DNA of 64,000 nucleotides from Tachypleus tridentatus (taxonomy: Eukaryota; Arthropoda; Merostomata; Xiphosura; Limulidae): positions 147,180,127-147,244,126 of the forward strand of contig NC_134833.1 of assembly GCF_004210375.1 (NCBI RefSeq), given 5' to 3'. How positions within the stretch are numbered: the first letter of the stretch is position 1; the number at the start of each line of letters is the position of its first letter. The notes under the pieces are model-generated. The model saw nothing but the letters and a program-made list of their open reading frames with translations. It was not told the origin of the DNA and searched no databases. Both the position numbers and the translations under genes were made by a program. Below are positions 6,001 to 61,700 of this stretch, piece by piece.

Positions 6001-9000
6001 ACTTGTGAAATCACCGTTACTGTATGAGACAGAACTTGTGAAATCACCGTTACTGTATGAGACAGAACTTGTGAAATCACCGTTACTGTATGAGACAGAA
6101 CTTGTGAAATCACCGTTACTGTATGAGACAGAACTTGTGAAATCACCGTTACTGTATGAGACAGAACTTGTGAAATCACCGTTACTGTATGAGACAGAAC
6201 TTGTGAAATCACCGTTACTGTATGAGACAGAACTTGTGAAATCACCGTTACTGTATGAGACAGAACTTGTGAAATCACCGTTACTGTATGAGACAGAACT
6301 TGTGAAATCACCGTTACTGTATGAGACAGAACTTGTGAAATCACCGTTACTGTATGAGACAGAACTTGTGAAATCACCGTTACTGTATGAGACAGAACTT
6401 GTGAAATCACCGTTACTGTATGAGACAGAACTTGTGAAATCACCGTTACTGTATGAGACAGAACTTGTGAAATCACCGTTACTGTATGAGACAGAACTTG
6501 TGAAATCACCGTTACTGTATGAGACAGAACTTGTGAAATCACCGTTACTGTATGAGACAGAACTTGTGAAATCACCGTTACTGTATGAGACAGAACTTGT
6601 GAAATCACCGTTACTGTATGAGACAGAACTTGTGAAATCACCGTTACTGTATGAAACAGAACTTGTGAAATCACCGTTACTGTATGAGACAGAACTTGTG
6701 AAATCATCATGACTCTATGAGACAGAACTTGTGAAATCACCGTTACTGTATGAGACAGAACTTGTGAAATCACCGTTACTGTATGAGACAGAACTTGTGA
6801 AATCACCGTTACTGTATGAGACAGAACTTGTGAAATCACCGTTACTGTATGAAACAGAACTTGTGAAATCATCATGACTGTATGAGACAAATCGTGTGAA
6901 AGTAATTTACTGTATGAGACAGAATTTGTGAAATCACCGTTACTGTATGAGACAGAACTTGTGAAATCACCGTTACTGTATGAGACAGAACTTGTGAAAT
7001 CACCGTTACTGTATGAGACAGAACTTGTGAAATCACCGTTACTGTATGAGACAGAACTTGTGAAATCACCGTTACTGTATGAGACAGAACTTGTGAAATC
7101 ACCGTTACTGTATGAGACAGAACTTGTGAAATCACCGTTACTGTATGAGACAGAACTTGTGAAATCACCGTTACTGTATGAGACAGAACTTGTGAAATCA
7201 CCGTTACTGTATGAGACAGAACTTGTGAAATCACCGTTACTGTATGATGAACTTGAAATCAGAACTTGTGAAATCACCGTTACTGTATGAGACAGAACTT
7301 GTGAAATCACCGTTACTGTACGAGACAGAACTTGTGAAATCACCGTTACTGTATGAGACAGAACTTGTGAAATCACCGTTACTGTATGAAACAGAACTTG
7401 TGAAATCACCGTTACTGTATGAGACAGAACTTGTGAAATCACCGTTACTGTATGAGACAGAACTTGTGAAATCACCGTTACTGTATGAGACAGAACTTGT
7501 GAAATCACCGTTACTGTATGAGACAGAACTTGTGAAATCACCGTTACTGTATGAGACAGAACTTGTGAAATCACCGTTACTGTATGAGACAGAACTTGTG
7601 AAATCACCGTTACTGTATGAGACAGAACTTGTGAAATCACCGTTACTGTATGAGACAGAACTTGTGAAATCACCGTTACTGTATGAGACAGAACTTGTGA
7701 AATCACCGTTACTGTATGAGACAGAACTTGTGAAATCACCGTTACTGTATGAGACAGAACTTGTGAAATCACCGTTACTGTATGAGACAGAACTTGTGAA
7801 ATCACCGTTACTGTATGAGACAGAACTTGTGAAATCACCTGTATGACAGAACTGTGAAATCACCGTTACTGTATGAACAGAACTTGTGAAATCACCGTTA
7901 CTGTATGAGACAGAACTTGTGAAATCACCGTTACTGTATGAGACAGAACTTGTGAAATCACCGTTACTGTATGAGACAGAACTTGTGAAATCACCGTTAC
8001 TGTATGAGACAGAACTTGTGAAATCACCGTTACTGTATGAGACAGAACTTGTGAAATCACCGTTACTGTATGAGACAGAACTTGTGAAATCACCGTTACT
8101 GTATGAGACAGAACTTGTGAAATCACCGTTACTGTATGAGACAGAACTTGTGAAATCACCGTTACTGTATGAGACAGAACTTGTGAAATCACCGTTACTG
8201 TATGAGACAGAACTTGTGAAATCACCGTTACTGTATGAGACAGAACTTGTGAAATCACCGTTACTGTATGAGACAGAACTTGTGAAATCACCGTTACTGT
8301 ATGAGACAGAACTTGTGAAATCACCGTCACTGTATGAGACAGAACTTGTGAAATCACTGTTACTGTATGAGACAGAACTAGTGAAATCACCGTTACTGTA
8401 TGAGACAGAACTTGTGAAATCACCGTTACTGTATGAGACAGAACTTGTGAAATCACCGTTACTGTATGAGACAGAACTTGTGAAATCACCGTTACTGTAT
8501 GAGACAGAACTTGTGAAATCACCGTTACTGTATGAGACAGAACTTGTGAAATCACCGTTACTGTATGAGACAGAACTTGTGAAATCACCGTTACTGTATG
8601 AGACAGAACTTGTGAAATCACCGTTACTGTATGAGACAGAACTTGTGAAATCACCGTTACTGTATGAGACAGAACTTGTGAAATCACCGTTACTGTATGA
8701 GACAGAACTTGTGAAATCACCGTTACTGTATGAGACAGAACTTGTGAAATCACCGTTACTGTATGAGACAGAACTTGTGAAATCACCGTTACTGTATGAG
8801 ACAGAACTTGTGAAATCACCGTTACTGTATGAGACAGAACTTGTGAAATCACCGTTACTGTATGAGACAGAACTTGTGAAATCACCGTTACTGTATGAGA
8901 CAGAACTTGTGAAATCACCGTTACTGTATGAGACAGAACTTGTGAAATCACCGTTACTGTATGAGACAGAACTTGTGAAATCACCGTTACTGTATGAGAC

Positions 9001-12000
9001 AGAACTTGTGAAATCACCGTTACTGTATGAGACAGAACTTGTGAAATCACCGTTACTGTATGAGACAGAACTTGTGAAATCACCGTTACTGTATGAGACA
9101 GAACTTGTGAAATCACCGTTACTGTATGAGACAGAACTTGTGAAATCACCGTTACTGTATGAGACAGAACTTGTGAAATCACCGTTACTGTATGAGACAG
9201 AACTTGTGAAATCACCGTTACTGTATGAGACAGAACTTGTGAAATCACCGTTACTGTATGAGACAGAATGTGTGAAATCAATTTACTGTATGAGACAGAA
9301 CTTGTGAAATCACCGTTACTGTATGAGACAGAACTTGTGAAATCACCGTTACTGTATGAGACAGAACTTGTGAAATCACCGTTACTGTAGAGAGACAGAA
9401 CTTGTGAAATCACCGTTACTGTATGAGACAGAACTTGTGAAATCACCGTTACTGTATGAGACAGAACTTGTGAAATCACCGTTACTGTATGAGACAGAAC
9501 TTGTGAAATCACCGTTACTGTATGAGACAGAACTTGTGAAATCACCGTTACTGTATGAGACAGAACTTGTGAAATCACCGTTACTGTATGAGACAGAACT
9601 TGTGAAATCACCGTTACTGTATGAGACAGAACTTGTGAAATCACCGTTACTGTATGAGACAGAACTTGTGAAATCACCGTTACTGTATGAGACAGAACTT
9701 GTGAAATCACCGTTACTGTATGAGACAGAACTTGTGAAATCACCGTTACTGTATGAGACAGAACTTGTGAAATCACCGTTACTGTATGAGACAGAACTTG
9801 TGAAATCACCGTTACTGTATGAGACAGAACTTGTGAAATCACCGTTACTGTATGAGACAGAACTTGTGAAATCACCGTTACTGTATGAGACAGAACTTGT
9901 GAAATCACCGTTACTGTATGAGACAGAACTTGTGAAATCACCGTTACTGTATGAGACAGAACTTGTGAAATCACCGTTACTGTATGAGACAGAACTTGTG
10001 AAATCACCGTTACTGTATGAGACAGAACTTGTGAAATCACTGTATGAGACAGAACTTGTGAAATCACTGTATGAGACAGAACTTGTGAAATCACTGTTAC
10101 TGTATGAGACAGAACTAGTGAAATCACCGTTACTGTATGAGACAGAACTTGTGAAATCACCGTTACTGTATGAGACAGAACTTGTGAAATCACCGTTACT
10201 GTATGAGACAGAACTTGTGAAATCACCGTTACTGTATGAGACAGAACTTGTGAAATCACCGTTACTGTATGAGACAGAACTTGTGAAATCACCGTTACTG
10301 TATGAGACAGAACTTGTGAAATCACCGTTACTGTATGAGACAGTGACTTGTGAAATCACCGTTACTGTATGAGACAGAACTTGTGAAATCACCGTTACTG
10401 TATGAGACAGAACTTGTGAAATCACCGTTACTGTATGAGACAGAACTTGTGAAATCACCGTTACTGTATGAAACAGAACTTGTGAAATCATCATGACTGT
10501 ATGAGACAAATCGTGTGAAAGTAATTTACTGTATGAGACAGAATTTGTGAAATCACCGTTACTGTATGAGACAGAACTTGTGAAATCACCGTTACTGTAT
10601 GAGACAGAACTTGTGAAATCACCGTTACTGTATGAGACAGAACTTGTGAAATCACCGTTACTGTATGAGACAGAACTTGTGAAATCACCGTTACTGTATG
10701 AGACAGAACTTGTGAAATCACCGTTACTGTATGAGACAGAACTTGTGAAATCACCGTTACTGTATGAGACAGAACTTGTGAAATCACCGTTACTGTATGA
10801 GACAGAACTTGTGAAATCACCGTTACTGTATGAGACAGAACTTGTGAAATCACCGTTACTGTATGAGACAGAACTTGTGAAATCACCGTTACTGTATGAG
10901 ACAGAACTTGTGAAATCATCATGACTGTATGAGACAAATCGTGTGAAATCACAATCACTGTATAAGACAGAACTTGTGAAATCACTGTTACTGTATGAGA
11001 CGGAACTAGTGAAATCACCGTTACTGTATGACACAGAACTTGTGAAATCACCGTTACTGTATGAGACAGAACTTGTGAAATCACTGTATGAAACAGAACT
11101 CATCATGACTGTATGAGACAAATCGTGTGAAAGTAATTTACTGTATGAGACAGAATTTGTGAAATCACCGTTACTGTATGAGACAGAACTTGTGAAATCA
11201 CCGTTACTGTATGAGACAGAACTTGTGAAATCACCGTTACTGTATGAGACAGAACTTGTGAAATCACCGTTACTGTATGAGACAGAACTTGTGAAATCAC
11301 CGTTACTGTATGAGACAGAACTTGTGAAATCACCGTTACTGTATGAGACAGAACTTGTGAAATCACCGTTACTGTATGAGACAGAACAGAAATCACCGTT
11401 ACTGTATGAGACAGAACTTGTGAAATCACCGTTACTGTATGAGACAGAACTTGTGAAATCACCGTTACTGTATGAGACAGAACTTGTGAAATCACCGTTA
11501 CTGTATGAGACAGAACTTGTGAAATCACCATTACTGTATGAGACAGAACTTGTGAAATCACCGTTACTGTATGAGACAGAACTTGTGAAATCACCGTTAC
11601 TGTATGAGACAGAACTTGTGAAATCACCGTTACTGTATGAGACAGAACTTGTGAAATCACCGTTACTGTATGAGACAGAACTTGTGAAATCACCGTTACT
11701 GTATGAGACAGAACTTGTGAAATCACCGTTACTGTATGAGACAGAACTTGTGAAATCACCGTTACTGTATGAGACAGAACTTGTGAAATCACCGTTACTG
11801 TATGAGACAGAACTTGTGAAATCACCGTTACTGTATGAGACAGAACTTGTGAAATCACCGTTACTGTATGATGAACTTGTGAGAACTTGTGAAATCACCG
11901 TTACTGTATGAGACAGAACTTGTGAAATCACCGTTACTGTATGAGACAGAACTTGTGAAATCACCGTTACTGTATGAGACAGAACTTGTGAAATCACCGT

Positions 12001-14972
12001 TACTGTATGAGACAGAACTTGTGAAATCACCGTTACTGTATGAGACAGAACTTGTGAAATCACCGTTACTGTATGAGACAGAACTTGTGAAATCACCGTT
12101 ACTGTATGAAACAGAACTTGTGAAATCATCATGACTCTATGAGACAAATCGTGTGAAAGTAATTTACTGTATGAGACAGAATTTGTGAAATCACCGTTAC
12201 TGTATGAGACAGAACTTGTGAAATCACCGTTACTGTATGAGACAGAACTTGTGAAATCACCGTTACTGTATGAGACAGAACTTGTGAAATCACCGTTACT
12301 GTATGAGACAGAACTTGTGAAATCACCGTTACTGTATGAGACAGAACTTGTGAAATCACCGTTACTGTATGAGACAGAACTTGTGAAATCACCGTTACTG
12401 TATGAGACAGAACTTGTGAAATCACCGTTACTGTATGAGACAGAACTTGTGAAATCACCGTTACTGTATGAGAACAGAAATCACCGTTACTGTATGAAAG
12501 AACTTGTGAAATCACCGTTACTGTATGAGACAGAACTTGTGAAATCACCGTTACTGTATGAGACAGAACTTGTGAAATCACAATTACTGTATGAGACAGA
12601 ACTTGTGAAATCACTGTTACTGTATGAGACAGAACTTGTGAAATCACCGTTACTGTATGAGACAGAACTTGTGAAATCACCGTTACTGTATGAGACAGAA
12701 CTTGTGAAATCACCGTTACTGTATGAGACAGAACTTGTGAAATCACCGTTACTGTATGAGACAGAACTTGTGAAATCACCGTTACTGTATGAGACAGAAC
12801 TTGTGAAATCACCGTTACTGTATGAGACAGAACTTGTATGAAACAGAACTCACCGTTACTGTATGAGACAGAACTTGTGAAATCACCGTTACTGTATGAG
12901 ACAGAACTTGTGAAATCACCGTTACTGTATGAGACAGAACTTGTGAAATCACCGTTACTGTATGAGACAGAACTTGTGAAATCATCATGACTGTATGAGA
13001 CAAAACGTGTGAAAGTAATTTACTGTATGAGACAGAATTTGTGAAATCACCGTTACTGTATGAGACAGAACTTGTGAAATCACCGTTACTGTATGAGACA
13101 GAACTTGTGAAATCACCGTTACTGTATGAGACAGAACTTGTGAAATCACCGTTACTGTATGAAACAGAACTTGTGAAATCATCATGACTGTATGAGACAA
13201 ACTTGTGAAATCATTTACTATATGAGACAAATCGTGTGAAAGTAATTTACTGTATGAGACAGAATTTGTGAAATCACCGTTACTGTATGAGACAGAACTT
13301 GTGAAATCACCGTTACTGTATGAGACAGAACTTGTGAAATCACCGTTACTGTATGAGACAGAACTTGTGAAATCACCGTTACTGTATGAGACAGAACTTG
13401 TGAAATCACCGTTACTGTATGAGACAGAACTTGTGAAATCACCGTTACTGTATGAGACAGAACTTGTGAAATCACAGTTACTGTATGAGACAGAACTTGT
13501 GAAATCACCGTTACTGTATGAGACAGAACTTGTGAAATCACCGTTACTGTATGAGACAGAACTTGTGAAATCATCATGACTGTATGAGACAAATCGTGTG
13601 AAAGTAATTTACTGTATGAGACAGAATTTGTGAAATCACCGTTACTGTATGAGACAGAACTTGTGAAATCACCGTTACTGTATGAGACAGAACTTGTGAA
13701 ATCACCGTTACTGTATGAGACAGAACTTGTGAAATCACCGTTACTGTATGAGACAGAACTTGTGAAATCACCGTTACTGTTACTGTATGAGACAGAACTT
13801 GTGAAATCATCATGACTGTATGAGACAAATCGTGTGAAAGTAATTTACTGTATGAGACAGAATTTGTGAAATCACCGTTACTGTATGAGACAGAACTGGT
13901 GAAATCACCGTTACTGTATGAGACAGAACTTGTGAAATCACCGTTACTGTATGAAACAGAACTTGTGAAATCATCATGACTCTATGAGACAAATCGTGTG
14001 AAAGTAATTTACTGTATGAGACAGAATTTGTGAAATCACCGTTACTGTATAAGACAGAACTTGTGAAATCACCGTTACTGTATGAGACAGAACTGGTGAA
14101 ATCACCGTTACTGTATGAGACAGAACTTGTGAAATCACCGTTACTGTATGAAACAGAACTTGTGAAATCATCATGACTCTATGAGACAAATCGTGTGAAA
14201 GTAATTTACTATATGAGACAAATCGTGTGAAAGTAATTTACTGTATGAGACAGAATTTGTGAAATCACCGTTACTGTATGAGACAGAACTGGTGAAATCA
14301 CCGTTACTGTATGAGACAGAACTTGTGAAATCACCGTTACTGTATGAAACAGAACTTGTGAAATCATCATGACTCTATGAGACAAATCGTGTGAAAGTAA
14401 TTTACTGTATGAGACAGAATTTGTGAAATCACCGTTACTGTATAAGACAGAACTTGTGAAATCACCGTTACTGTATGAGACAGAACTGGTGAAATCACCG
14501 TTACTGTATGAGACAGAACTTGTGAAATCACCGTTACTGTATGAAACAGAACTTGTGAAATCATCATGACTCTATGAGACAAATCGTGTGAAAGTAATTT
14601 ACTGTATGAGACAGAATTTGTGAAATCACCGTTACTGTATGAGACAGAACTTGTGAAATCACCGTTACTGTATGAGACAGAACTTGTGAAATCACCGTTA
14701 CTGTATGAAACAGAACTTGTGAAATCATCATGACTCTATAAGACAAATCGTGTGAAAGTAATTTACTGTATGAGACAGAATTTGTGAAATCACCGTTACT
14801 GTATGAGACAGAACTTGTGACATCACTGTTACTGTATGAGACAGAACGTGTGAAATCACAATCACTGTATAAGACAGAACTTGTGAAATCACTGTTACTG
14901 TATGAGACAAAACGTGTGAAAGTACTTTACTGTATGAGACAAAACGTGTGAAAGTACTTTACTGTATGAGAC
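1..14972. repeat. 33-bp satellite array, about 450 units, open at left edge
   Basis: The consensus unit is 33 bp (core accgttactgtatgagaca followed by gaacttgtgaaatc) and repeats without interruption from base 1. Between about 850 and 6700 the units are almost identical, with single changes such as T to G near 4302. Because 33 is divisible by 3, three of the six frames stay open for kilobases; this follows from the period and is not evidence of a protein. A diagnostic variant block (catcatgactgtatgag, then acaaatcgtgtgaaagtaat) recurs at about 790, 6870, 10490, 11100, 12130, 12985, 13190, 13570, 13810, 13974, 14170, 14370, 14565 and 14730, at shrinking intervals. The last units (14900-14972) are the most diverged. 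The array probably lies in an intron of the PDZ gene whose last exon starts at 17823. Its true length is unknown because the left end is outside the window. Confidence 0.98.
13810..14910. repeat. Higher-order repeat zone at the satellite edge
   Basis: At the right edge the 33-bp units are organised into blocks of about 164 to 197 bp. Each block starts with the catcatgact / aaatcgtgtgaaagtaat variant and contains fixed unit variants: one with aactggtgaaatc, one with gtataagacag and one with gtatgaaacag. The block starting near 13974 is repeated 393 bp later near 14367 with the same order of variants, which indicates a segmental duplication of two blocks. This is the pattern expected when unequal exchange homogenises the interior and leaves the edge diverged. 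Confidence 0.85.
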
Positions 14973-15009
14973 ACAAATGGAAGATCTGATTCAATAAGTT
15001 TGAATACTA

Positions 15010-20854: not shown

Positions 20855-22482
20855 AGTCTATAGACAGGAGTTGACAATGTGTACTGTTGATTATCTGTCT
20901 TATCTCTAGCCTATAGACAAGAGTTGACAATGTGTACTGTTGACTATCTGTCTTCTCTCTAGCCAATAGACAAGAGATGACCATGTGTACTGTTGACTAT
21001 CTGTCTTATCTAGCCAATAGACAAGAGATGGCCATGTGTACTGTTGACTATCTGTCTTCTCTCTAGCCAATAGACAAGAGTTGGCCATGTGTACTGTTGA
21101 CTATCTGTCTTCTCTCTAGCCAATACACAAGAGTTGGTCATGTGTACTGTTGACTATCTGTTTTCTCTCTAGTCAATACACAAGAGTTGGCAATGTGTAC
21201 TGTTGACTATCTGTCTTCTCTCTAGCCAATACACAAGAGTTGGCAATGTGTACTGTTGACTATCTGTTTTCTCTCTAGCCAATAGACAAGAGTTGGCCAT
21301 GTGTACTGTTGACTATCTGTCTTCTCTCTAGCCAATAGAGAAGAGTTGGCAATGTGTACTGTTGACTATCTGTCTTCTCTCTAGCCAATAAACAAGAGTC
21401 GGCCATGTGTACTGTTGACTATCTGTCTTCTCTCTAGCCAATAGACAAGAGTTGGCCATGTGTACTGTTGACAATCTGTCTTCTCTCTAGCCAATAGACA
21501 AGAGTTGGCCATGTGTACTGTTGACTATCTGTCTTCTCTCTAGCCAATAGACAAGAGTTGGCCATGTGTACTGTTGACTATCTGTCTTCTCTCTAGCCAA
21601 TAGACAAGAGATGACCATGTGTACTGTTGACTATCTGTTTTCTCTAGCCAATAGACAAGAGATGACCATGTGTACTGTTGACTATCTGTCTTATCTAGCC
21701 AATAGACAAGAGATGTGTGACTGTTGACTATCTGTCTTCTCTCTAGCCAATAGACAAGAGTTGGCCATGTGTACTGTTGACTATCTGTCTTCTCTCTAGC
21801 CAATACACAAGAGTTGGTCATGTGTACTGTTGACTATCTGTTTTCTCTCTAGCCAATACACAAGAGTTGGCAATGTGTACTGTTGACTATCTGTTTTCTC
21901 TCTAGCCAATACACAAGAGTTGGCAATGTGTACTGTTGACTCTCTGTTTTCTCTCTAGCCAATAAACAAGAGTCGGCCATATGTACTGTTGACTATCTGT
22001 CTTCTCTCTAGCCAATAGACAAGAGTTGGCAATGTGTACTGTTGACTATCTGTCTTCTCTCTAGCCAATAAACAAGAGTCGGCCATGTGTACTGTTGACT
22101 ATCTGTTTTCTCTCTAGCCAATAGACAAGAGTTGGCCATGTGTACTGTTGACAATCTGTCTTCTCTCTAGCCAATAGACAAGAGTTGGCCATGTGTACTG
22201 TTGACTATCTGTCTTTTCTCTAGCCAATAGACAAGAGTTGGCAATGTGTACTGTTGACAATCTGTCTTCTCTCTAGCCAATAGACAAGAGTTGGCCATGT
22301 GTACTGTTGACTATCTGTCTTCTCTCTAGCCAATAGACAAGAGTTGGCCATGTGTACTGTTGACTATCTGTCTTCTCTCTAGCCAATAGACAAGAGATAA
22401 CCATGTGTACTACTTACTATCTGTCTTCTCTCTAGCCTGTAGACAAGAGTTGGCCGTGTATACTATTGACTATCTGTCTTCC
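20855..22482. repeat. 53-bp minisatellite, about 31 units
   Basis: The unit contains gccaatagacaagagttggc, catgtgtactgttgactatc and tgtcttctctcta. Copies differ by small substitutions (tagacaa/tacacaa/taaacaa, ttggcc/ttggca/atgacc, cttctc/ttttctc) and occasional short deletions near 21005 and 21715. The order of variants repeats in part (compare 20985-21130 with 21640-21800), suggesting multi-unit duplications. There are no spacers, so it is not a CRISPR-like array. It begins about 800 bp after the PDZ-gene stop codon. Confidence 0.95.
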
Positions 22483-28372: not shown

Positions 28373-28433
28373 AAAGGGAAGCTAAACAGTTTAAGTAATG
28401 AAATTTTCAATTGGACCATAATTAAAATCAAGT

Positions 28434-29934
28434 TTGATAGATGAGGGAATGCTAAGTTTGGAAGACGAGAGAATGATAAGTTTGGAAGACGAGGGAATGT
28501 TAAGTTTGGAAGACGAGAGAATGATAAGTTTGGAAGACGAGGGAATGCTAAGTTTGGAAGACGAGGGAATGCTAAGTTTGGAAGACGAGAGAATGATAAG
28601 TTTAAAAGACGAGGGAATGTTAAGTTTGGAAGACGAGGAAATGCTAAGTTTGGAAGACGAGAGAATGCTAAGTTGGAAGACGAGAGAATGCTAAGTTTGG
28701 AAGACGAGGGAATGCTAAGTTTGGAAGACGAGAGAATGCTAAGCTTCGAAGACGAGGGAATGCTAAGTTTGGAAGATGAGAGAATGCTAAGTTTGAAAGA
28801 CGAGAGAGTGCTAAGTTTGGAAGACGAGAGAATGCTTAATTTGGAAGACGAGGGAATGCTAAGTTTGGAAGACGAGAGAATGCTTGGTTTGAAAGACGAG
28901 GGAATGCTAAGTTTGGAAGACAAGGGAATGCTAAGTTTGGAAGACGAGAGAATGCTAAGCTTGGAAGACAAGGGAGTGCTAAGTATGGAAGACGAGGGAA
29001 TCCTAAGTGTGGAAGCCGAGAGAATGCTAAGTTTGGAAAACGAGAGAATGCTAAGCTTCGAAGACGAGGGAATGCTAAGTTTGGAAGACGAGGGAATGCT
29101 TAATTTGGAAGACGAGGGAATGCTAAGTTTGGAATACGAGAGAATGCTAAGTTTGGAAGACGAGAGAATACTAAGTTTGGAAGACGAGAGAATGCTTAGT
29201 TTGGAAGACGAGGGAATGCTAAGTTTGGAAGACGAGAGAATGAATGGAAGACGAGGGAATTAAGTTTGAAAGACGAGGGAATGCTAAGTTTGGAAGACAA
29301 GGAAATACTAAGTTTGGAAGACGAGAGAATGCTAAGCTTTGGAAGACAAGGGAGTGCTAAGTATGGAAGACGAGGGAATTGTAAGTTTGGAAGCCGAGAA
29401 AATGCTAAGTTTGGAAGACGAGAGAATGCTAAGTTTGGAAGACGAGAGAATGCTAAGCTTGGAAGACGAGGGAATGCTAAGTTTGGAAGACGAGGGAATG
29501 CTAAGTTTGAAAGACGAGGGAGTGCTAAGTTTGGAAGACGAGAGAATGCTTAATTTGGAAGACGAGAGAATGCTTAGTTTGGAAGACGAGGGAATGCTAA
29601 GTTTGGAAGACGAGAGAATGCTAAGTTTGGAAGACGAGAGAATGCTAAGCTTGGAAGACAAGGGAGTGCTAAGTATGGAAGACGAGGGAATGCTAAGTTT
29701 GGAAGACGAGAAAATGCTAAGTTTGGAAGACGAGAGAATGCTAAGTTTGGAAGACGAGCAAATGCTAAGTTTGGAAGACGAGAGAATGCTAAGCTTGGAA
29801 GACGAGGGAGTGCTAAGTTTGGAAGACGAGAGAATGCTTAATTTGGAAGACGAGGGAATGCTAAGTTTGGAAGACGAGGGAATGCTAAGTTTGGAAGACG
29901 AGGGAATGTTAAGTTTGGAAGACGAGAGAATCAC
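28434..29934. repeat. 24-bp minisatellite, about 62 units
   Basis: The unit is g(g/a)gaatgctaagtttggaag then acga. Units alternate irregularly between gggaatg and gagaatg starts, with rarer aagcttcg, ttaatttgg and agtatgg variants. The period is 8 codons, so long frames reading MLSLEDEG/R-like octamers appear on the plus strand and a complementary set on the minus strand. Single-base losses near 28674 and 29252-29340 break the plus frame, and no splice or promoter context supports a gene. The right end passes directly into the truncated PLE at about 29940. Confidence 0.93.
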
Positions 29935-29939
29935 AAGGA

Positions 29940-30760
29940 ATCATTTTAGCTTTACACCCACCACTATACTGGTACAGGTATGTTGATGATACAATTGTGG
30001 GATTCACATCTACAAAACACACACTTAGTTTTTTCAATCATGTTAATTCAATACACCTGAACATTAAGTTCACCTGTGAACAGAAAAAACAACTAACCAA
30101 ATGGCATTTCTTAACCTCAAGATCACTAGAACTGATACACAATTCAAAACAGAAATACACAGAAAAATCACCCATACTGGATTATACATTCCCTGGGACT
30201 CAGCACATGAAACAAAACAAAAACTGAACATACTAAGAAACCAAATAAACACAAAACTATAGATTACATTAACGATGAAATCAACAAAATAAAACAACAC
30301 TTCATCAACAACCACAAATTTACTCTAAAAACCATGGAAAAAATTATACGCACACATCGAGACCAACAACAACAAACAAACAACAATAAATCCCAAAATA
30401 GAACAAACTACAAAACCTTATAATGCTGAATACCATATGTTCCTGACATTAGTGACAAAATAACCAAGATTTGGAGAAAAGTTATAACGAAACACAAAGT
30501 TCCAGTAAACACAAAATTTATTTAAAACCAAGTACAAAACTAAAGTCCATACTATGTAAAAACTACACTGACAAACACAACACCAACATAATTTATAAAA
30601 TACAATGCAACAACTGCCACGACTTCTATATTGAAGAAACAAGCAGAAAAATGGAAATTAGATTCAAAGAACAAAAAACAACTTCAAAGGTTTTTGAACA
30701 TTGCAAATCAAATAAACATAACCATAGAGAACACCCAGACATTTAGAATGAAAACAAATA
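29940..30760 (+). pseudogene. Truncated Penelope-like element: RT C-terminal part and GIY-YIG domain
   Basis: The frame from about 29950 contains YWYRYVDDTIVGF, the catalytic YVDD box of a PLE-type reverse transcriptase, followed by FFNHVN and IKFTCEQ. A frameshift near 30150 moves the conserved HRKITHTGLY block into another frame, which continues to a stop near 30262. From about 30470 another frame encodes a GIY-YIG-like region: IIYKIQCNNC, then FYIEETSRKMEIRF and EHCKSNKHN. The usual YIG is YIE here, so the nuclease motif is also damaged. The 5' part of the element is missing; it is cut at the 24-bp array. Family-level assignment to PLEs is firm; the subfamily is not resolved. Confidence 0.85.
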
Positions 30761-31200
30761 TAAACAAACGTAAATTTAAAGAAGCACTACTTGTATAGCA
30801 ACTTAGACCAATATAAAGGAACATCTTTATATCTATACTAATTAATAACGCCTCCCCCTGCTAGTACAGCGGTATGTCTTCGGATTTACAACGCTCAAAT
30901 CAGGGGTTCGATTCCCCTCGGTGGGCTTAGCAGATAGCCCGATGTGGCTTTGCTGTAAGAAAACACATCTGAACACACACTGATTAATAACCTTACATCC
31001 ACCTGCAACGCCCCCTACAATTCCGTAGCTGTTTATGCTCTCATCCCTGAGACATGTGTCCGTCAACGGTCACATTCAAACTCTCTCTTTCTTAACTTGA
31101 AGACGACCTAGAAAGGTCGAAACGTTGTTCTCTCCTTATCAATAAAAATGTTACTACCCATACCAGCCGTTCTGAGATACATTTTTATTTCAAGAGGGTT
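30761..31200 (+). mobile_element. 3' region of the PLE, interrupted by a SINE, with hammerhead-like motif
   Basis: It continues from the GIY-YIG frame and ends near acccataccagccgttctga, a block also present at 42610-42631. At about 31098-31125 there is gaagacgacctagaaaggtc followed by gaaacgttgttc. This gives a GACC/GGTC hairpin, then GAAA and a palindromic ACGU, resembling part of a hammerhead ribozyme. The core cytosine before UGA is U here and only 3 bp of stem I can form, so this copy is probably inactive. Confidence 0.6.
30850..30978 (+). mobile_element. Family-V SINE inserted in the PLE 3' region
   Basis: A near-consensus family-V copy: A box tagtacagcgg, B box gggttcgattccc, tail cagatagcccgatgtggctt. 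Target-site duplication of 13 bp with one mismatch: actaattaataac at 30837-30849 and actgattaataac at 30979-30991. It dates after the PLE insertion. Confidence 0.9.
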
Positions 31201-31374
31201 TCTCATCATCAAGTGTCCTTCCAAATGTCTTGTAAATATTTTGATTAATTTCAATTTATTTTGTGAATAAAATAGTTAACTTCGATCAGTTTAGTTAGAC
31301 TTTAGGATTTTATATTGAAAAAAAAACATTAACTTATTCAGGAGAAACTAGACTTCGTTTGTTCGAGCTGATTG

Positions 31375-42476: not shown

Positions 42477-42635
42477 CATGAAGACGAGAAACCCACTCTA
42501 GTCTCTAACACGTGTCTATCAACGACCAGTCACAAACTGTTTCTTAAACTGAAGATGGCCTAAAAAGGTCGAAACATTGTTCTATACTTTATTTTAATTA
42601 ATGTTTTAATACCCATACCAGCCGTCTTGAGGTTA
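42477..42635 (+). mobile_element. Short PLE-terminal element with hammerhead-like motif and target-site duplication
   Basis: This 159-bp stretch matches the 3' end of the PLE at 31020-31170 (aacacgtgtctatcaacgac, gtcgaaacattgttct, acccataccagccgtc). It is flanked by a 14-bp repeat with one mismatch: caatgtgtgccact (42463-42476) and caatatgtgccact (42636-42649). It contains CTGAAGA, an extra T, a GGCC/GGTC stem, then GAAA. Stem I is poor (two A-T pairs), so it is likely a dead ribozyme copy. No coding capacity. Confidence 0.7.
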
Positions 42636-46767: not shown

Positions 46768-49700
46768 GTACGTAAGGCTTATTAAGGTTAAAGTTTCTAA
46801 AGAATGGTGATTTAGGTTTTTACGAACTTATTTTAATTATGCGTATTATGCCACATTACTTTGTGTTCCCTTTTTGAAACTTTGAACATGTATAAATCTA
46901 TAACGTTATTATTGTATCAATAAAAATTTAAAAATTCAGTTTGACCTGCACTTCTGTCACTATGCGTAGACTGTAATAAGGTAAGGTACAAGTGCTTGTA
47001 AAAATGTACTGATGTTCTTGTAGTCATTTTGACTAGTTATTACTTTTATAGACCTCTCGTGAAATTAAGTTTCTTTTTAACGTTTCTAACAGTTTGTGTT
47101 TTTGTAACATAAATTGCAGATTTATTGTTTTTATCTAATGAATGGTCTAACAGTTATGAAATTTTTAGAAAATAAAGCTTGGAAACAGCTGGAATGGGTA
47201 ATGTACAGGGTGGCCCGTAAGTTCCTACCCATCCATATATCTTATGTATCCAGTGTATCTGTGTGCTGTCCCTCATTCTCGCTGCATAATATTATGTGAC
47301 GTCATGTTCTGTGAGACATTTTCCTCAACATAGCAGGGGTTATTGTTCCAAGTGCCACGGTAACAGCTGCCTTCAACTCAACATCATCATAATTGAATAT
47401 AACATAATAACATATGGATGGGTAGGGACTTATGGGCCACCTTGTAGTAGAGTTCCTCTCACTACCCAAAACTGTCTCCAAACTTTACATTGTGAATGTT
47501 TGTTTAGATGTAGTTAGGGAATGATGTATACCTAGCAGTTTTATGCATGTTTACTAAAGGTTACATACATGAAGACCATGTTTGTGTTATTTTAAAATAT
47601 ATAAAACATGTTATCCACACTCCCTTTCTGGTGCTTATATCCTTGCAGACAGTACTATAGCTTATCAGACAAGTAAGATGATAGATATAGTGAGGGAGAT
47701 GCTAAACTTAAGGCTATATAAACAGGGTTGGGCATTTGATTAGTCACAAGTCTTTGTTAATGAGTCTAATATGAACAGATATAAACAATGATGTCGAGAA
47801 AACCCACATGTAGAGAAATATATATATGTAAAATCGGCTCGTTTGGGTTGAGATAATTTTTTACGTAGAGGAGCAAACAACGTTTCGATCTTCTTCCTTT
47901 CTTTGTGAACCTGAAGATGATCGAAGAAGGTCGAAATGTTGTTTACTCCTCTACATAAAACCTTTTCTCAACCCAAATGAACCGTTTTTACATATATATA
48001 AACAGATATATTTTTATCATTTCTCTTTTGTCTTAATTGTATATATATTGAATTTTACTCAGCCTTAATTATTTTACTTCATAAGGTTTTGTATTTTAAT
48101 AAATGAACAAATATGGTTATACAAAATGTATTGTAAAAGTAACCTAAGTCCTAAAACTACTGTGTTGGAAGTTTAGGACAAGACAAACTTAGTCAGACAG
48201 GACCTAATGATTGAATATTTCTAATACAAGTTAAACACTTAGTGTTTGGGCTTATTTTTACAAAACATATAATTTAAGAGCTCAATGTTTGATAAATGCA
48301 AATTACACAAAGAAAAAAAAGTTCATGGCTCATCTCTAGCCTCCTCATAACTAAATCCAGTTTTTCATACAATGCCACCACTTTGATTATGTATTCTAAA
48401 CAAAAAATATTAAGTCATTGTACCAAATAACTATTTTTTTTATCAGTATATTACTTTTATGATAATTATATTGACAGTTAAAGTATGGTTATTAGCTGCA
48501 TAAAATTGAAGGATAAAATAACATATAACATCAGTAATATATGACTCTTAGTGAGTTAAGGGACCCATTAAACATATGCATTATACGATATTTATATAAT
48601 AATTATAAAATATGCAAAATTCTATTCCAAAACATGTTTATCTTCCCTCGCACTCTAGCTATTACTCAACTGGTAGGGTTTCTTTATCTCTGTCTATCTA
48701 CGCATCAGTCTGATTTTTCTCGCTTGCACCAGTCTTTTATTCTACACTTAATTACCTTTGGCAATATTTGTCTCGTGACATTCCCCACCCATGTCAATGT
48801 GCTCTCTCTCTATCTTGGTATTGTATACTAGCACCTCATTCAGCTAATACAGTATTATGACTTTTTCTCAACGGAGCATTCAAAAATGGGTTTCTCTGAA
48901 GCATGACAATAGAAATAGTTTTGAGCATTGTTTGTATTACCTATTTAATTTTCATAAAACAAACAGCAGCACAAAATTTGTTTGGCAGGTCGATTTAAGG
49001 CATGCATTCTTGGATTAATTTATTCAACATAGAAGCAAGAGAAGTCTCTTGTGTCCCATCTCTGATATCTAGCATTTCTCATGAACTTAGAGGGGAGGAA
49101 TTCACTTAGTCAAGGCTGTCTGTGAAATTATCTGTAATGAGATGGAAGCATATATTTGGTCCAGTGGGGTTTCTCTGGGTGGCTCTGAGGTTGAACCTTG
49201 AAGTGATCCTGGACATTATGGAGACTATCAGATTAGTTTTTTCCAGCATCTTTTTTTACTCTGCTGCAGGAAGGTGTAAAACTTAGCTAATTGAAGGGAC
49301 AGCTATATCTTGTCCATAACTTTTATCAGAACAACATGCTTTCACCTATCACAGTCAGATAGATGCATATTTAGACTCTCAAAGAATTCAGAAAGGCATC
49401 TATGGTCAATTTGAATAGATCAATTTTTTGCAGTGTTTGTGTGACCCTAACCACAGTGCTGAAATATCATTCCTATATATATTTTTAGGAAGCAACTCTG
49501 CAATTGTCATGTCACTTTGATGACAAGTTGTGACCACTTTTTGTGGCATTTGGTCCAGATATCTTTGTTTTTTAACTTTGGATCTACCATATTGGGCCCA
49601 CTCTCTTCCTGTCGTTCAACTAGATGACTGTGTTTTTGAAGTGACAAATTTGGAAGTGGATCAATTGTTTGAGCCATGCTAGATTTTTGCATTACAATAG

Positions 49701-52700: not shown

Positions 52701-55700
52701 TAAAATGGATTTTCATTTTGTAATGTGTTCTTTTAAGATATTTAAAATCTAGACACTAAAGTGCATATTTTAAAAGTTTTTTCCCTTAAAACATTTATCT
52801 AACAAGAATTACAGAAAGACAGAGAGTTTAAATTTAGAATAATTTGTTACCTTTTCAGCTGTGAATAACATGTTTTATTATGGCTGAAAACTTGGTACGT
52901 GTGACATTAGTTTAAAACTTTACCAATAAATCTGTCAACTCAGGATGTTATTTTGTCCTTAGGTTCTTGATACTTTTATACACATAAATCACCATTAAAT
53001 AAAGCTTTTTCAAAGTTGTAACTATTTATATATTTCGTATAGGTAGTTAGATAATACTTTCTCTTTCAGGTTACTGATTCTAAAGGGCAGGTGCTGGTGT
53101 CCAGAGAAAACATTGACCGAGGAAAATTTGCTTTCAACACAGATGAATTTGATGTATTTGAAATATGTTTTTTGACGAAACTACCTGTAGGTAAGGACTG
53201 TTAAAAAGAAGTTTCAGATTTAAGTAAGAACTATGTAAATACTGTACCGTTGATGAGAAGAATAGCACGTTAACTGTACATTGATACTGTACTATTGATG
53301 AGAAGAATAACACGTTAACTGTACTTTCATACTGTACTATTGACGAGAAGAATAACACGTTAACTGTACGTTGATACTGTACTATTGACTAGAAGAATAA
53401 CACGTTAACTGTACGTTGATACTGTACTATTGACGAGAAGAATAACACGTTAACTGTACTTTCATACTGTACTATTGACGAGAAGAATAACGCGTTAACT
53501 GTACATTCATACTGTACTATTGACGAGAAGAATAACGCGTTAACTGTACATTCATACTGTACTATTGACGAGAAGAATAACACGTTAACTGTACATTCAT
53601 ACTGTACTATTGACGAGAAGAATAACACGTTAACTGTACATTCATACTGTACTATTGACGAGAAGAATAACACGTTAACTGTACATTCATACTGTACTAT
53701 TGACGAGAAAAATAACACGTTAACTGTGCATTGATACTGTATTATTGACGAGAAGAATAACACCTTTACAATTAAACTGATTGATGTCATTTGTAAAGTA
53801 TGAAAGTTACAAACAATTGAGTCAATAAATGTCTTTTAGACATATTGTGATATATTGTTTATTTGTGTTGTGTAAATTTTGATGGAAAAATTAATCACTT
53901 CTTTCACTTTGGATTAAGAACATTGGTTTAATGTTGAAAGTTTTAAGTTCCTGAAACACTAAAACATACAGACAATCCATGGTATAATTCTTAGGTATGG
54001 TTTTTACATTTTGCAATGCAATATATTAATGTGATTTCTGGAACAATTGTTCAGAATCGTATTCTCGAGTTAACATGACATTTCGAAAGTGTGAATGCAT
54101 ATAACAGTGTTATGGGGTGTCCATAGCTAACAGCAGTTAGCTATTCATTGCTTGTTAGTTTTGTTTCAACTGCTACAGAGTTAAACTTTTCCTGTTGATA
54201 ATTTGTGTAAGATGTGATCTGGCTTGAATATGCTGTTCAAAATCATGGAATTCTCAAGGTTTTTACAGTGGAGGATTCTAATCTGTTCCAGAGAAGAAAA
54301 CTGTAGAATACTTGTAGTGCATACAGTCTTCAATATACAAAATAAATATGTTTTTGAAAAGTTGTTGATATAGCAGAACATGTTTTCCTATTACATAATT
54401 GGAAATCTATTCCTATGGAAAAAACGTCTGTCCCAAAGATAGAGAAAAATGTAAAACCCTGTAGATAATTATTATAAATGGTTTAATAACTAGGAATGGT
54501 GCTGGATCTGTTAGGACTGTATTTGTCTATTAAAGTGGATGGACTTTATAACTCCAGCCATACATTATTTAGTAGGAGTGACTATTACTACAACTTGGAA
54601 GAGTTAATTTATATTCTATATACTTATTTTAAAGATATATTGAGTGACTTGTTCTTACACACACGTAACTTTGGACAAAAATGAAAAACATTTTTATAAT
54701 TGTAATTGTTAATTTCACTTCCATATATAATTGCTCTAATGATAATTAGGTACACTAGATAATACGTGATTTAGAGAAGCTTATAATCACACGTAGAAAA
54801 ACAATTAAATGGATTAGCAGTGTCATTGACTATTTAAAACAGGATCTAAGTAGGTGAGGTAAGACAATGACCTCTCACTGAGCACCACATAGGTTCATCA
54901 GCTGGCAACTTGCATACATTAGATATTTTTTATTATGTCTGCAGAATCCAGTTAGGATTTTCTTACATTGTATATAACAGTGGAAAACCAAGATCATGAT
55001 ACAGGTGAAAATATGAAGGTGGATATTTAGTGAACATAACAATGGATATTTGGAAAGAAAGATGTGTGAAAATATTTGAATAATCACAGTGGCGAGACAA
55101 CTCTTTGTAGTGGTAATGATAGTGACGAGACAACTCTGTAGTGCTAATGATAGTGGCGAGACAACTCTTTGTTGTGGTAATGATAGTGACGAGACAATTC
55201 TGTAGTGGTAATGATAGTGGCAAGACAACTCTTAGTAGTGGTAATGATTGTGTTGAGACAACTGTTTGTAGTGGTAATGATTGTGGGAAGACAACTCTTT
55301 GTAGTGGTAATGATTGTGGCGAGACAACTCTTTGTTGTGGTAATGATAGTGACGAGACAATTCTGTAGTGGTAATGATAGTGGCAAGACAACTCTTAGTA
55401 GTGGTAATGATTGTGTTGAGACAACTGTTTGTAGTGGTAATGATTGTGGGAAGACAACTCTTTGTAGTGCTAATGATAGTGGCGAGACAACTCTTTGTTG
55501 TGGTAATGATAGTGACGAGACAATTCTGTAGTGGTAATGATAGTGGCAAGACAACTCTTAGTAGTGGTAATGATTGTGTTGAGACAACTGTTTGTAGTGG
55601 TAATGATTGTGGGAAGACAACTCTTTGTAGTGGTAATGATTGTGGCGAGACAACTCTTTGTAGTGGTAATGATTGTGGCGAGACAACTCTTTGTAGTGGT

Positions 55701-58700
55701 AATGATTGTGGCAAGACAACTCTTTGTAGTGGTAATGATAGTGGTAGAATGTGGTAAGAAATGGAAAATGTAATAACTTAGTGAGAACTTTGATAAAACT
55801 GTAAGTGTTAATTCAGTTTTTTCAACAGAAATAGTTGAAGACATTCAAGGATAATTTTGTTTTATTTCCGATTTTTTATGGTCTCATTGAATGTGTTTAT
55901 CGTTAAATGTTAATCAAGTATGTAATGTTGTTCAAAAAAGTTCCGATTCACATCTTGAAAGAAAATTATGGCTTTCTGACAGATGGAAATAAAGGAAGAT
56001 ATTTTACTATAAACGTAATGGTGAAAAGCATTATGAACATTACTAGGTGTATTCTCATTGCAAAGACTGTATTTTGCTTTATTTGTTTTTATCAAAATGG
56101 GGACTGGTCTTACTTTTCAAGGTTATTTCAGACGGAGAGTTTGTTAAAATAATAACAGAACATGTGGCCTTGAAGAATGACTATATGGTGACAATAAAAT
56201 TGATCAACATGTACAAATAAAAACAGAATTAGAGAAACGATAGAAAAAATTTTTTGATTCCTTACTGTGGTGCAGTTTTTTTGGATTATTGATATTAATG
56301 GCTAAATTTTTTCTAACTGTGAAAGTGCGTTTAGGTCGTGTAATAATGAAATACACGCTACCTCGGAAAGACCATCCAAAACAAATTGTGTGATTTAGTA
56401 AACGAAATTGTGAAAGGTGAAATATTAGAAAAAGAGAAACAAAACATTTATTTTACACATGTTGAACAAATGAAACACTATGTTGAATGTAATACTGAGG
56501 AAATTGAAGTTTTTTTTATTTTGGTCTTGTGTCAATAATACTTCTGCCTAAAATCATGTTGACAGAAACCTTAACTTGGACATTCAAGATTGTTATGGAC
56601 AAGGCTATGACAGTGATGCTAATTTCATTGATTAAAATAATGGTGTAAAATCAAAAATAGTTGAGATAACTCAAGCTTTCTTCTGTTCCTGTGATTAATA
56701 TACACATATAAAAACGGCTCGTTTGGGTTGATGTGAACCTGACGATGATCGAAGAAGGTTGAAATATTGTTCACTCCTCTATGTAAAAAAATTTTGCCAA
56801 CCCAAACAAGCCATTTTTACATGTATATTTTTCTCTACAAGTGGGTTTTCTTGACATCACTGATTGTTCCTGTGATTGTTGTAATTTGGCCTCAAGAGGT
56901 ATTGGTTTCTCTCGTACAGAGCCTAAAGAATTTTGGTTTGTTTCCAAAGCTGTATAGGTTATTTTAAGCATTTTCAAGCAGATGACAAATATTAGAAAGG
57001 TAAATTTTACCATAAAATCTCTCTCTCAAACTAGATGGAAGTGGTGGTTGGATAGTTTGAATGTTATTCAACCTTGATGCTTTACTGGAACAAAAATATA
57101 CATATAAAAACGGCTCGTTTGGGTTGATGTGAACCTGACGATGATCGAAGAAGGTTGAAATATTGTTCACTCCTCTATGTAAAAAAATTTTGCCAACCCA
57201 AACAAGCCATTTTTACATGTATATTTTTCTCTACAAGTGGGTTTTCTTGACATCACTGATTGTTCCTGTGATTGTTGTAATTTGGCCTCAAGAGGTATTG
57301 GTTTCTCTCATTACAGAGCCTAAAGAATTTTGGTTTGTTTCCAAAGCTGTATAGGTTATTTTAAGCATTTTCAAGCAGATGACAAATATTAGAAAGGTAA
57401 ATTTTACCATAAAATCTCTCTCTCAAACTAGATGGAAGTGGTGGTTGGATAGTTTGAATGTTATTCAACCTTGATGCTTTACTGGAACAAAAATATACAT
57501 ATAAAAACGGCTCGTTTGGGTTGATGTGAACCTGACGATGATCGAAGAAGGTTGAAATATTGTTCACTCCTCTATGTAAAAAAATTTTGCCAACCCAAAC
57601 AAGCCATTTTTACATGTATATTTTTCTCTACAAGTGGGTTTTCTTGACATCACTGATTGTTCCTGTGATTGTTGTAATTTGGCCTCAAGAGGTATTGGTT
57701 TCTCTCGTACAGAGCCTAAAGAATTTTGGTTTGTTTCCAAAGCTGTATAGGTTATTTTAAGCATTTTCAAGCAGATGACAAATATTAGAAAGGTAAATTT
57801 TACCATAAAATCTCTCTCAAACTAGATGGAAGTGGTGGTTGGATAGTTTGAATGTTATTCAACCTTGATGCTTTACTGGAACAAAAATATACATATAAAA
57901 ACGGCTCGTTTGGGTTGATGTGAACCTGACGATGATCGAAGAAGGTTGAAATATTGTTCACTCCTCTATGTAAAAAAATTTTGCCAACCCAAACAAGCCA
58001 TTTTTACATGTATATTTTCTCTACAAGTGGGTTTTCTTGACATCACTGATTGTTCCTGTGATTGTTGTAATTTGGCCTCAAGAGGTATTGGTTTCTCTCG
58101 TACAGAGCCTAAAGAATTTTGGTTTGTTTCCAAAGCTGTATAGGTTATTTTAAGCATTTTCAAGCAGATGACAAATATTAGAAAGGTAAATTTTACCATA
58201 AAATCTCTCTCTCAAACTAGATGGAAGTGGTGGTTGGATAGTTTGAATGTTATTCAACCTTGATGCTTTACTGGAACATATAAAAAAGTGTAATAGTACC
58301 AAACATAGTGAATGGGATTGTCTCATGAATGAAATTATATGATATATCTTTTAATAAATGTAAATACTATCAGTAAATTATGACAGATAAATAACATGCA
58401 TTTGGGCAGCACTGTAAAGCATATAAGAGTTCTTAAAATGTGAATATTAGATCAAAAGGCTTTGAGTAAACACTTTATTACCAGTAATTTGTCAGAGTTT
58501 AAATTTTGATAAAGAATTAAAAGGTGCAACAACAAATAAGTAGAAAATTGTTCAATTATGAAAGAACAATTGTACTAAAGATTCTGAAGAAACATTCGAG
58601 ATTCGCTATTGTAACGTTATTGTTGATAAAATTTGTGCAAGTGCTGAAACACAATACAAGGCTTTTAAAGTTGGGGGAAATCATTGGATTTTCTATAATC

Positions 58701-61700
58701 TTTTGAAACTTGGTATTATTACAGAAGAACTTATGCAACCTTACACAGACCTCATGATTAAACTCAGCTCTAAAGGTTCATGTAACATCAGTGAAAGAAA
58801 ATGTATGAAAAGACTCTAAAGTGCTTTGCAGGCTTATAGCATCTGATACCAATATAAACAATACCATGAAATTTATCATAGAAAATAATTTACATGAGAT
58901 ATACCCAAATGTAAATGTAGCTCTTTGCATAGTTGTGACTACTCCAGTTAGCGTTACTTTGGTCGAAAGAAGTGTTTCTTGCCCTAAACTTATCAAAATG
59001 GACTTCCATTCTACCATGTCTCAAGAAAATAATAGAATTATTGGCAATGTTATGTATAAAAGATTCTGTATCAAACTCTATAAGTTTTTTTCTGATCTGA
59101 TTGAAGACCAGTGTTCAGAAAGGTAGAAACTCCTTATTAAAGAATAACGTGAGTGATCTAAATATGTTTTATGTAAGCTGGGTTTTTTCACTGTTTATTA
59201 TTGACAGATACAATGATATATCTATACATTCAGTATCAGCACAAGTTACTTAAATTATATTTAAAAATAACTCAGCTCTGTAAAGGATGTTTCAAAGTAA
59301 GTTTCTAGAAATGAGTGCGCATGTCAGACTGTATACTAGATTCTTATGGCTACAGTTACCTCTTAACCCTGATTTACAACCTGCACATTTGTCTGTGAGT
59401 TTATTGCATATTTTATGGTTATATATACATTAGTGGAATAGACAGAACTATTAATTAGGATAGAATTAACAAAAACTTTTGAGCTTTACTTACATTAGAT
59501 AGTAAACCTGTGGCTAAACATTTTGTTGACCAATGTGATGTAATTGATATTGACTGTCCCATAACAGCAAATGCTCTTACACACTTCTACCTACAGCTAT
59601 AAAAATAGAACTTATAAAAAAGCTCTACTTATTTCACAAAATAAACTTTGAAATAAACAACTCGGATTTTTTCTTCTTACTCTTTGTATTTAATTAGTGT
59701 AATAATGTGTGTGCTTTAGATGGTAAAATTTTGTCCACCCCCTTTTTTTTTAATGTATATGCATGAAGTCTATCTTGGTCCATGTACTCATACTATTTTG
59801 AAATCTTTTGTGTAAGTCTAAATCAACTATCAAGCATCTTGTTTGTCCTGATAAAGCTGTAAAGGAGAAAAATTTTCACTTAAGTAAAGCCAGTTATGTT
59901 TCCTGGAGTAATAGATTGTTTTATTTCTCCTTTTAATAGAACTCTCCAGTTTGTACTACAAATGTTAATATCACATATTGTATTGCAATAACAGAGTAGA
60001 GAATAAATAATTTGTCAGTTGGGTTCTAAAGTAACTGAACTAACTTGTATGGACTTTGGATAAAAGTGACAATTATTTAAAGCTCTGGATAAAACTAGTA
60101 TCAAACAGCTATAGTGGAGATTTTAAAATGGAATTATTACAATGTATTGTAATAACAGAGTAATTTGTTTTATCAAAGTATGTTTTAAAGTAGCTGACAG
60201 AAAGAATTATTTAAAGTGTGGATAAAACTGTGATAATTGATATTGTAACAAACACTTTATATGGTTTACTTGTTTTAAAGTAAATGGTTTGTGCACTATT
60301 TGTTTATTGTTGAAATTTATTACTAACAAATCACTGACACCTACAATAAAGAACCTAACTTGTACATAAGGCCTGACAACATTGTTTCGGAATCTCATAT
60401 TAACTTGTAGTGGAGCCTCTGGAAAACGTGCTCTAAGATTGACCACACCACATATTGAAAAAGTTTGTTAAGTACAAATTGCAATATTCCATAATAGTGG
60501 TCAACAATGGCTATCTGGCCAAGCAAATTGATGGAGAGAGTAATTTCAAGAGTAGTCTAGATGTTAGAACATTGTTCACTTAAAGTGTAATTAAAAGCCA
60601 ATTCATTTGTCTTGGATATTGTGTATTCAATTGTCAACCTTAATGAAATATGTTTAAAAAAACAAACAGTACCCTAACCTTTGTAGTTTTGTGACTTATA
60701 TTTTTAAAAATGGACTGTTTATGAACCAAACTTGAAAGTTTGTTTGCATTAAATTAAAAATGTGTGAAGTCTACAAATACAGATAAATATACAGTGCTAC
60801 TCTATGTATGTTTATGTGCTATATTACCTTTTTTCCCCATTTCCCTAAAAGAGTGAAGTTTTTTTTTTGATACAATGAAGCAAATTTGTGCTGCTTCCAT
60901 AAAAAAACAATGTATATATATTTTGATACAATGTCTCACTCTTCAACTTGCGATGCCTGTTAATATATCAAGATTCTGTGATAGATGAGGCTTTGTTAAT
61001 AAAGGATACTGGTGATACAGTATCATGTGAATTAAGTACCATCTCAACAAGTTCAAGGTTTGCTGATCTTTCTTTGTCTGAAAGAAATCATTAGATATAA
61101 ATATTAAAACCTTTCTTGAAACAGATGAAGTTGCGCTCATTAGTAACATAAGGTTTATTGTTACGTTGTTCTTTCTTCAAGGTCAAGGGGGAATGATGAG
61201 GGAAGCCACACTTACTTTAAAGCATGGTGTCGAGGCCAAGAGCTATGACGGGGTAGGTTGATTGAAACTGTTTTTTATCCTTTTTGAGAGCTGTAGAACA
61301 AATCATACTGTATTGTGTTATTGCTTTTATAATGATTCGATAACAGTTAAAATTTTAATTTGTTGTTAAAAGAGTCATGTCCAAATATTTCACAGCTCTG
61401 ATAACTTACTGTTGATGTTAGTTTTAAAATATCTTACTTAGAGTACTCTAGTGTGATTACAATGTCTACTTTAGCTTGAAGAGGTCGGAAAGTTGAAACC
61501 CCTGGAAATTGAACTGCAGAAACTTGAGGACATGTCGGAAGCCATTGTCAAAGACTTTGCGTACATGAGGCAGCGAGAAGAAGAAATGAGAGACACGAAT
61601 GGTAATAGTTTTGTACATATTATAGAAAACATCTCAATAACAGTAGCGTATGACATGGTTTATAAGGTATTTGAGTTAATAAAAAGTTAGGGTTTGGATA

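Follow-up and report, generated by a model that had tools for sequence, protein, structure and literature searches.

The four tandem hammerhead-like motifs in intron 2 of a TMED10-like gene of Tachypleus tridentatus very probably go back to the terminus of a Penelope-like element (PLE) that inserted into decayed hAT transposase sequence, decayed in its turn and was then duplicated locally, to four units; the motifs themselves probably have no role. The locus looks like ordinary genome wear, not like a new self-cutting RNA element. The window analyzed here is a stretch of 64,000 nucleotides from contig NC_134833.1, and all positions are those of the window. The features discussed are collected in Table 1.

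Structure of the array and its hammerhead-like motifs

Tandem Repeats Finder reported one array at 56700-58278, with a period of 397, 4.0 copies and 99% matches. The near-identical units are spaced by 396, 397 and 394, and their alignment has variable columns at 10 of 397 positions, five in the body and five at the right edge of the last unit. An initial sequence-only reading had described four tandem units with the same 42-nt hammerhead-like motif, and this was confirmed, the 42-mer (GTGAAC-CTGACGA-T-GATC-GAAGAA-GGTT-GAAA-TAT-T-GTTCAC) being unchanged in all four. It is laid out as stem I (6 bp), CUGACGA, an extra U, stem II (GAUC/GGUU), GAAA, UAU, U and the second strand of stem I, and the cut position predicted at 56768/56769 follows from this motif. 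The departures from a canonical hammerhead are the lack of a within-copy stem III and the extra U after the core; stem II includes two G-U pairs.

The free fold of 56700-56850 (151 nt) includes both stems around the core, stem I with 6 bp and stem II with 4 bp; its z-score is -3.35 (0 of 200 shuffles as good), with much of the folding energy supplied by the long inverted arms. A loose type-I scan of the window found five motifs, the four of the array and one at 47911, each with a stem I of 6 and a stem II of 4. The chance rate of such a loose motif, determined from 200 first-order Markov sequences of window length, was 0.14 per sequence, and dropped to 0.005 for stem I of at least 6 and stem II of at least 4. 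When single 42-mers were folded, the array and 47.8-kb motifs were hammerhead-like, and the 42.5- and 31.1-kb motifs formed stem II only. In a two-copy fold of the array motif, the predicted pairing differs from a double hammerhead, and the minimum fold of the consensus 42-mer also departs from the plain hammerhead fold. The check by covariance model that had been proposed came out negative: the Rfam hammerhead models gave no match at gathering in the whole window, and none at E ≤ 10 in 56600-58400. Rfam matches to MIR2630 in the array track the inverted arms and score no higher than 27.5 bits, where the cut-off is 144. A search of viral contigs with a degenerate motif pattern gave 0 matches.

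The array lies in intron 2 on the same strand as the gene, as first read, and the exon positions on the + strand agree with this. We take the exon series to be TMED10-like from its family resemblance. Pfam detected EMP24_GP25L in both scanned exon pieces, in one just under the curated cut-off (E = 2.8e-05) and in the other above it (E = 2.1e-07). Further minisatellites are present at 20860-22481, 28430-29931, 53239-53763 and 55081-55744; the last two are near the array, and this part of the intron seems to be prone to tandem duplication. At the start of the window (1-14973), a 33-bp satellite (95% matches) forms a 15-kb array with long spurious frames.

Table 1 Features of the window, with strand and the basis of assignment or a remark where given
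Feature	Positions	Strand	Basis or remark
Decayed PLE RT and GIY-YIG-like frames	29940..30790	+	by eye; peptides match PLE-bearing loci
Terminus with hammerhead-like motif, downstream of the above remnant	31091..31215	+	
PLE terminus of another subfamily	42477..42634	+	TSD 14/15 bp
TMED10-like exons	about 46.6-46.77, 53.07-53.19, 61.17-61.25, 61.47-61.60, 62.16-62.28 kb	+	
Second PLE terminus, inverted arm and hammerhead-like motif	47784..48000	+	10-bp TSD
Decayed hAT transposase, left of insertion	56569..56683	+	
TSD, left copy, 13-bp TGTTCCTGTGATT	56684..56696	.	
PLE terminal (pLTR) insertion, unit 1, 168 nt	56697..56864	+	flanking TSDs, genome homologues
Left inverted arm	56697..56730	+	ends near putative inner RT start site
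11-bp ACATATAAAAA at left edge	56704..56714	.	repeated at 58276-58286, right edge
Four tandem units	56705..58279	+	56705-57100, 57101-57497, 57498-57891, 57892-58279
Hammerhead-like motif 1	56733..56774	+	fold and motif scan
Right inverted arm	56798..56831	+	
"Tail" segment ending at putative outer RT start site	56835..56864	+	+120 from motif's ATG; comparison with PMC11167929
TSD, right copy, TGTTCCTGTGATT	56865..56877	.	
Hammerhead-like motif 2	57129..57170	+	motif scan
Hammerhead-like motif 3	57526..57567	+	motif scan
Hammerhead-like motif 4	57920..57961	+	motif scan
Decayed hAT transposase, right of array	58280..59126	+	

The PLE terminal piece and its hAT surroundings

Judged by sequence, the array motif belongs to a PLE terminus that has its own target-site duplication (TSD) and sits in decayed hAT. 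The array copy contains no ORF, and its TSD is exact over 13 bp. With the 168-nt piece and one TSD copy excised, the hAT frame continues across the join, and stop codons are met only farther out on each side. Three lines of evidence identify the hAT: the two matches returned by a protein search, each of which has a hAT dimerisation domain (E = 2.4e-6 and 7.1e-4), local similarity over 18/43 residues to the left of the join, and a weak Pfam match right of the array. Pfam results on the hAT and PLE pieces overall were weak or empty. The estimate of about 228 bp of hAT per unit was borne out by position, and the 228 bp within the unit showed no protein match of their own.

To place the hAT part in the genome, a 215-bp query was searched against the 2.17-Gb assembly, with very common words skipped and all five candidates scored. 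The matches listed fall in five places, the four array units and one diverged relative at C9:106.1 Mb, which contains a 74% piece over 111 positions. A single 65% alignment of this relative, with small gaps, runs through the insertion point as well as the array's right edge, and a PLE piece was not found in it at E ≤ 1. Together with the TSD and the frame, this indicates that the hAT came first, the PLE piece second and the 396-bp multiplication last, in place. The idea that a ribozyme element had captured hAT sequence is therefore reversed: the older hAT acted as host, and the PLE piece arrived in it as a guest.

Other PLE copies are present in the window. The motif at 47911 lies within the same kind of foldback as the array motif, and weaker relatives occur at 42549 and 31097. 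In the decayed frames upstream of the last, a YVDD and a GIY-YIG-like stretch were read by eye, and Pfam gave no match to the window's decayed PLE frames. A tRNA-like, SINE-looking stretch at 30850-30980, also read by eye, lies between this endonuclease remnant and its terminus. Counted from the motif's ATG, the right ends are at +120 in the array, +84 at 47.8 kb and +80 at 42.5 kb. For an Anolis PLE, reverse transcription was reported to start 111-118 into the ORF, with an optional 30-40-bp "tail" between two start sites (PMC11167929), and in Adineta Penelope one of the inverted pLTRs has an optional 31-bp tail (PMC3846280). The right ends in the window fit these descriptions closely.

Relatives of the terminus across the genome

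The 168-nt piece was searched against its own genome (2.17 Gb), and 40 of 4222 first-look candidates were scored, giving 48 matches. The set of relatives comprised every scored place outside the array (36), each taken with 3 kb of flank on either side. Peptides from the PLE remnant of the window matched 14 of the 36 loci at E ≤ 0.01, with 49-94% identity (endonuclease in 14, RT in 8), and no PLE protein was found within 3 kb at this threshold in the other 22. In 14 of 14 loci, the best endonuclease match is followed 235-290 bp further downstream by a same-sense motif (221-411 bp for further endonuclease pieces), which identifies this motif as that of PLE termini. No Rfam hammerhead was found at gathering in the 20 of 36 loci scanned.

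An inverted partner was present in 23 of the 36 loci and in both tested window copies, and was not found at the threshold used in 13 loci. The partners end at query position 93-105 in 24 of 25 cases and at 116 in one; the primaries end at 129-131, an end favoured by the selection criterion, a requirement from which the partner end was free. This two-ended pattern, with one end at the outer and the other at the inner site, fits extension from two start sites on two strands. Direct repeats at the ends measure at least 8 bp in 20 of 25 and at least 10 bp in 15 of 25, with less than 8 bp in five. Random end repeats, from 40 placements per locus, had means of 1.2-3.5 and maxima of 8-10 in 19 loci, 13 bp in one and 20 in five; because these maxima are mostly 8-10 bp, repeats of 8-9 bp alone are weak, and only the 15 with at least 10 bp stand out. 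Each of the 25 inverted-pair insertions has one outer-site and one inner-site end, counting the partner at 116.

The array copy and eight short relatives, which include the near-duplicates L021 and L035 (98.9% alike), follow one plan with differing junctions between arm and motif, and thus look like separate events of one mechanism. A foldback MITE, as one amplified unit with a constant interior, was rejected on these junctions. The TSDs of five short relatives are 7-12 bp, and those of L013, L014 and L018 were read by eye. Same-strand motif pairs were found in 5 of the 36 loci, two of them within 300 bp (L023 and L041), and three tandem motifs in none of the 36. In each of the pairs L021/L035, L025/L026 and L030/L031, the two PLE loci share a chromosome at a distance of 0.05-0.7 Mb and agree in motif rows and end repeats; they are probably segmental duplicates.

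The array copy differs from the majority line of 33 relatives at 13 of 131 positions, two of these being gaps in the majority line. Five changes fall in the motif, all C-to-T or G-to-A: two in stem II, two in stem III and one in stem I. The first four weaken stems II and III, with stem III changing from ACGT to ATAT, and the change in stem I gives a better pair. All five are common to the four units, so that decay preceded duplication. Among 33 primary copies (near-duplicates L026, L031 and L035 left out), identity to the consensus is 93.2% in the motif against 94.0% in the remainder, and 96.2% for the 12 core letters alone; selection on the ribozyme was thus not seen in this set, in which the motif is no better conserved than its surroundings and the core letters slightly better. 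Covariation was analyzed in 46 rows (41 distinct), with the same three loci and the 47.8-kb copy left out. There were no double changes, and the paired fractions of 0.927 and 0.982 were not above any of 500 shuffles. By our own criteria, the core, GAAA, UH and stems are kept in 30 of 52 motif rows; these rows include near-duplicates and exclude matches whose start lies beyond query position 4. The array motifs are expected to have little or no cleavage activity, with a small chance of dimeric cutting left by the four tandem copies. They are probably without a present role, and with at most weak cleavage activity.

Origin of the tandem array

Local tandem duplication is the reading of the array that we favour. 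The last unit continues into hAT, as a tandem duplication must, and the unit starts and ends do not coincide with the predicted cut site. No TSD was found around the whole array, the best outer-edge repeat being the 11-bp ACATATAAAAA inside the unit edge. Relative to unit 1, the inner junctions have three extra A's and lack CA, and the duplication was therefore no clean microhomology event; the filler probably arose at the first duplication.

In the proposed pathway, a 5'-truncated PLE pLTR piece with a minimal hammerhead motif inserted into the decayed hAT with a 13-bp TSD, a step shown by comparison. On the right the piece ends where reverse transcription starts at the outer ("tail") site; on the left it carries this region in inverted form, reaching to the inner start. 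The two-start-site structure of the ends is drawn from comparison with other PLE insertions, and the enzymology is presumed. The motif would then have decayed, followed by duplication in place of a 396-bp stretch (PLE piece and 228 bp of hAT), possibly near short shared sequence. Finally, unequal exchange may have raised the copy number to four.

PLEs with minimal type I hammerheads in their pLTRs have been described (PMC6155905, PMC11167929 and PMC7229834). The family of the array copy agrees with them in the motif layout of stems I and II only, in the position at the 3' terminus downstream of the endonuclease, in the inverted pLTR, one end of which bears a tail, and in a TSD of about 8-16 bp. 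The array copy itself differs as an ORF-less, decayed terminal piece tandemly duplicated with host DNA. Adineta Penelope offers a second parallel (PMC3846280): its solo pLTRs and host capture likewise involve ORF-less short pLTR pieces, inverted pLTRs, TSDs and host DNA between direct pLTR copies, but the host DNA of the array is local flank, repeated in place and unmoved. A PLE terminus, as a known kind of element, together with a local tandem duplication best accounts for the array.

It is very improbable, though the better of the alternatives, that PLE enzymes built the tandem themselves, through a read-through transcript of the PLE piece and hAT flank repeatedly copied back beside the AT-rich arm. 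PLEs do form tandems, and the AT-rich DNA that they nick includes their own pLTR (PMC11167929); host DNA can be captured between pLTRs (PMC3846280), and the arms of units 2-4 extend three A's further into PLE-like sequence than that of unit 1. The run of the last unit into hAT argues against this route, in which each retro-insertion would also need to stop precisely at its own target; no second TSD was found, and no copy elsewhere among the matches listed.

Even less credible is a retrozyme-like locus, in which a 4-nt ATAT stem III would join neighbouring motifs, and four cuts would set free 396-nt RNAs that circularise and can re-insert. Animal retrozymes consist of units 170-400 nt long that stand in tandem and carry type I hammerheads, some of which work as dimers (PMC7229834), and the motif geometry and the few-hundred-bp tandem units with a type I hammerhead-like motif are shared by the array. 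Unlike the non-LTR retrozymes of that source, the array occupies one locus as far as searched, its motif has no cis stem III and departs from the canonical type I hammerhead, its unit is mostly local hAT, and the array as a whole has no TSD. The matches listed show no dispersal of the unit, the hAT part occurring only in the four units and one relative. The mismatch of unit edges and cut site, the decay of a motif conserved no better than its surroundings, the absence of covariation and of an Rfam match, and a two-motif pairing unlike a double hammerhead all count against this route. In addition, no cutting by the minimal hammerhead of the Anolis PLE occurred in the absence of protein, and its mutation left insertion unchanged (PMC11167929). 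In the sequence-only reading, the hammerhead layout and the PLE connection are thus supported, and a retrozyme identity or origin of the array is not.

Insertion of a PLE terminus followed by local duplication remains the preferred reading, and it implies that a hammerhead-bearing tandem array can arise without a retrozyme, when a common PLE terminus inserts and the spot is then duplicated. Counts of retrozymes made from a tandem repeat with a hammerhead motif should accordingly be checked for TSDs, host sequence in the unit and dispersal. We consider it very unlikely that the dead PLE terminus, through accidental tandem duplication, regained the two-copy arrangement required by minimal hammerheads and that the TMED10 intron now sheds 396-nt RNAs that are half hAT; if true, this would be a retrozyme born by local duplication. 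The Tachypleus tridentatus genome also offers a natural data set on the ends of PLE insertions, with the inner start site at one end and the outer at the other.
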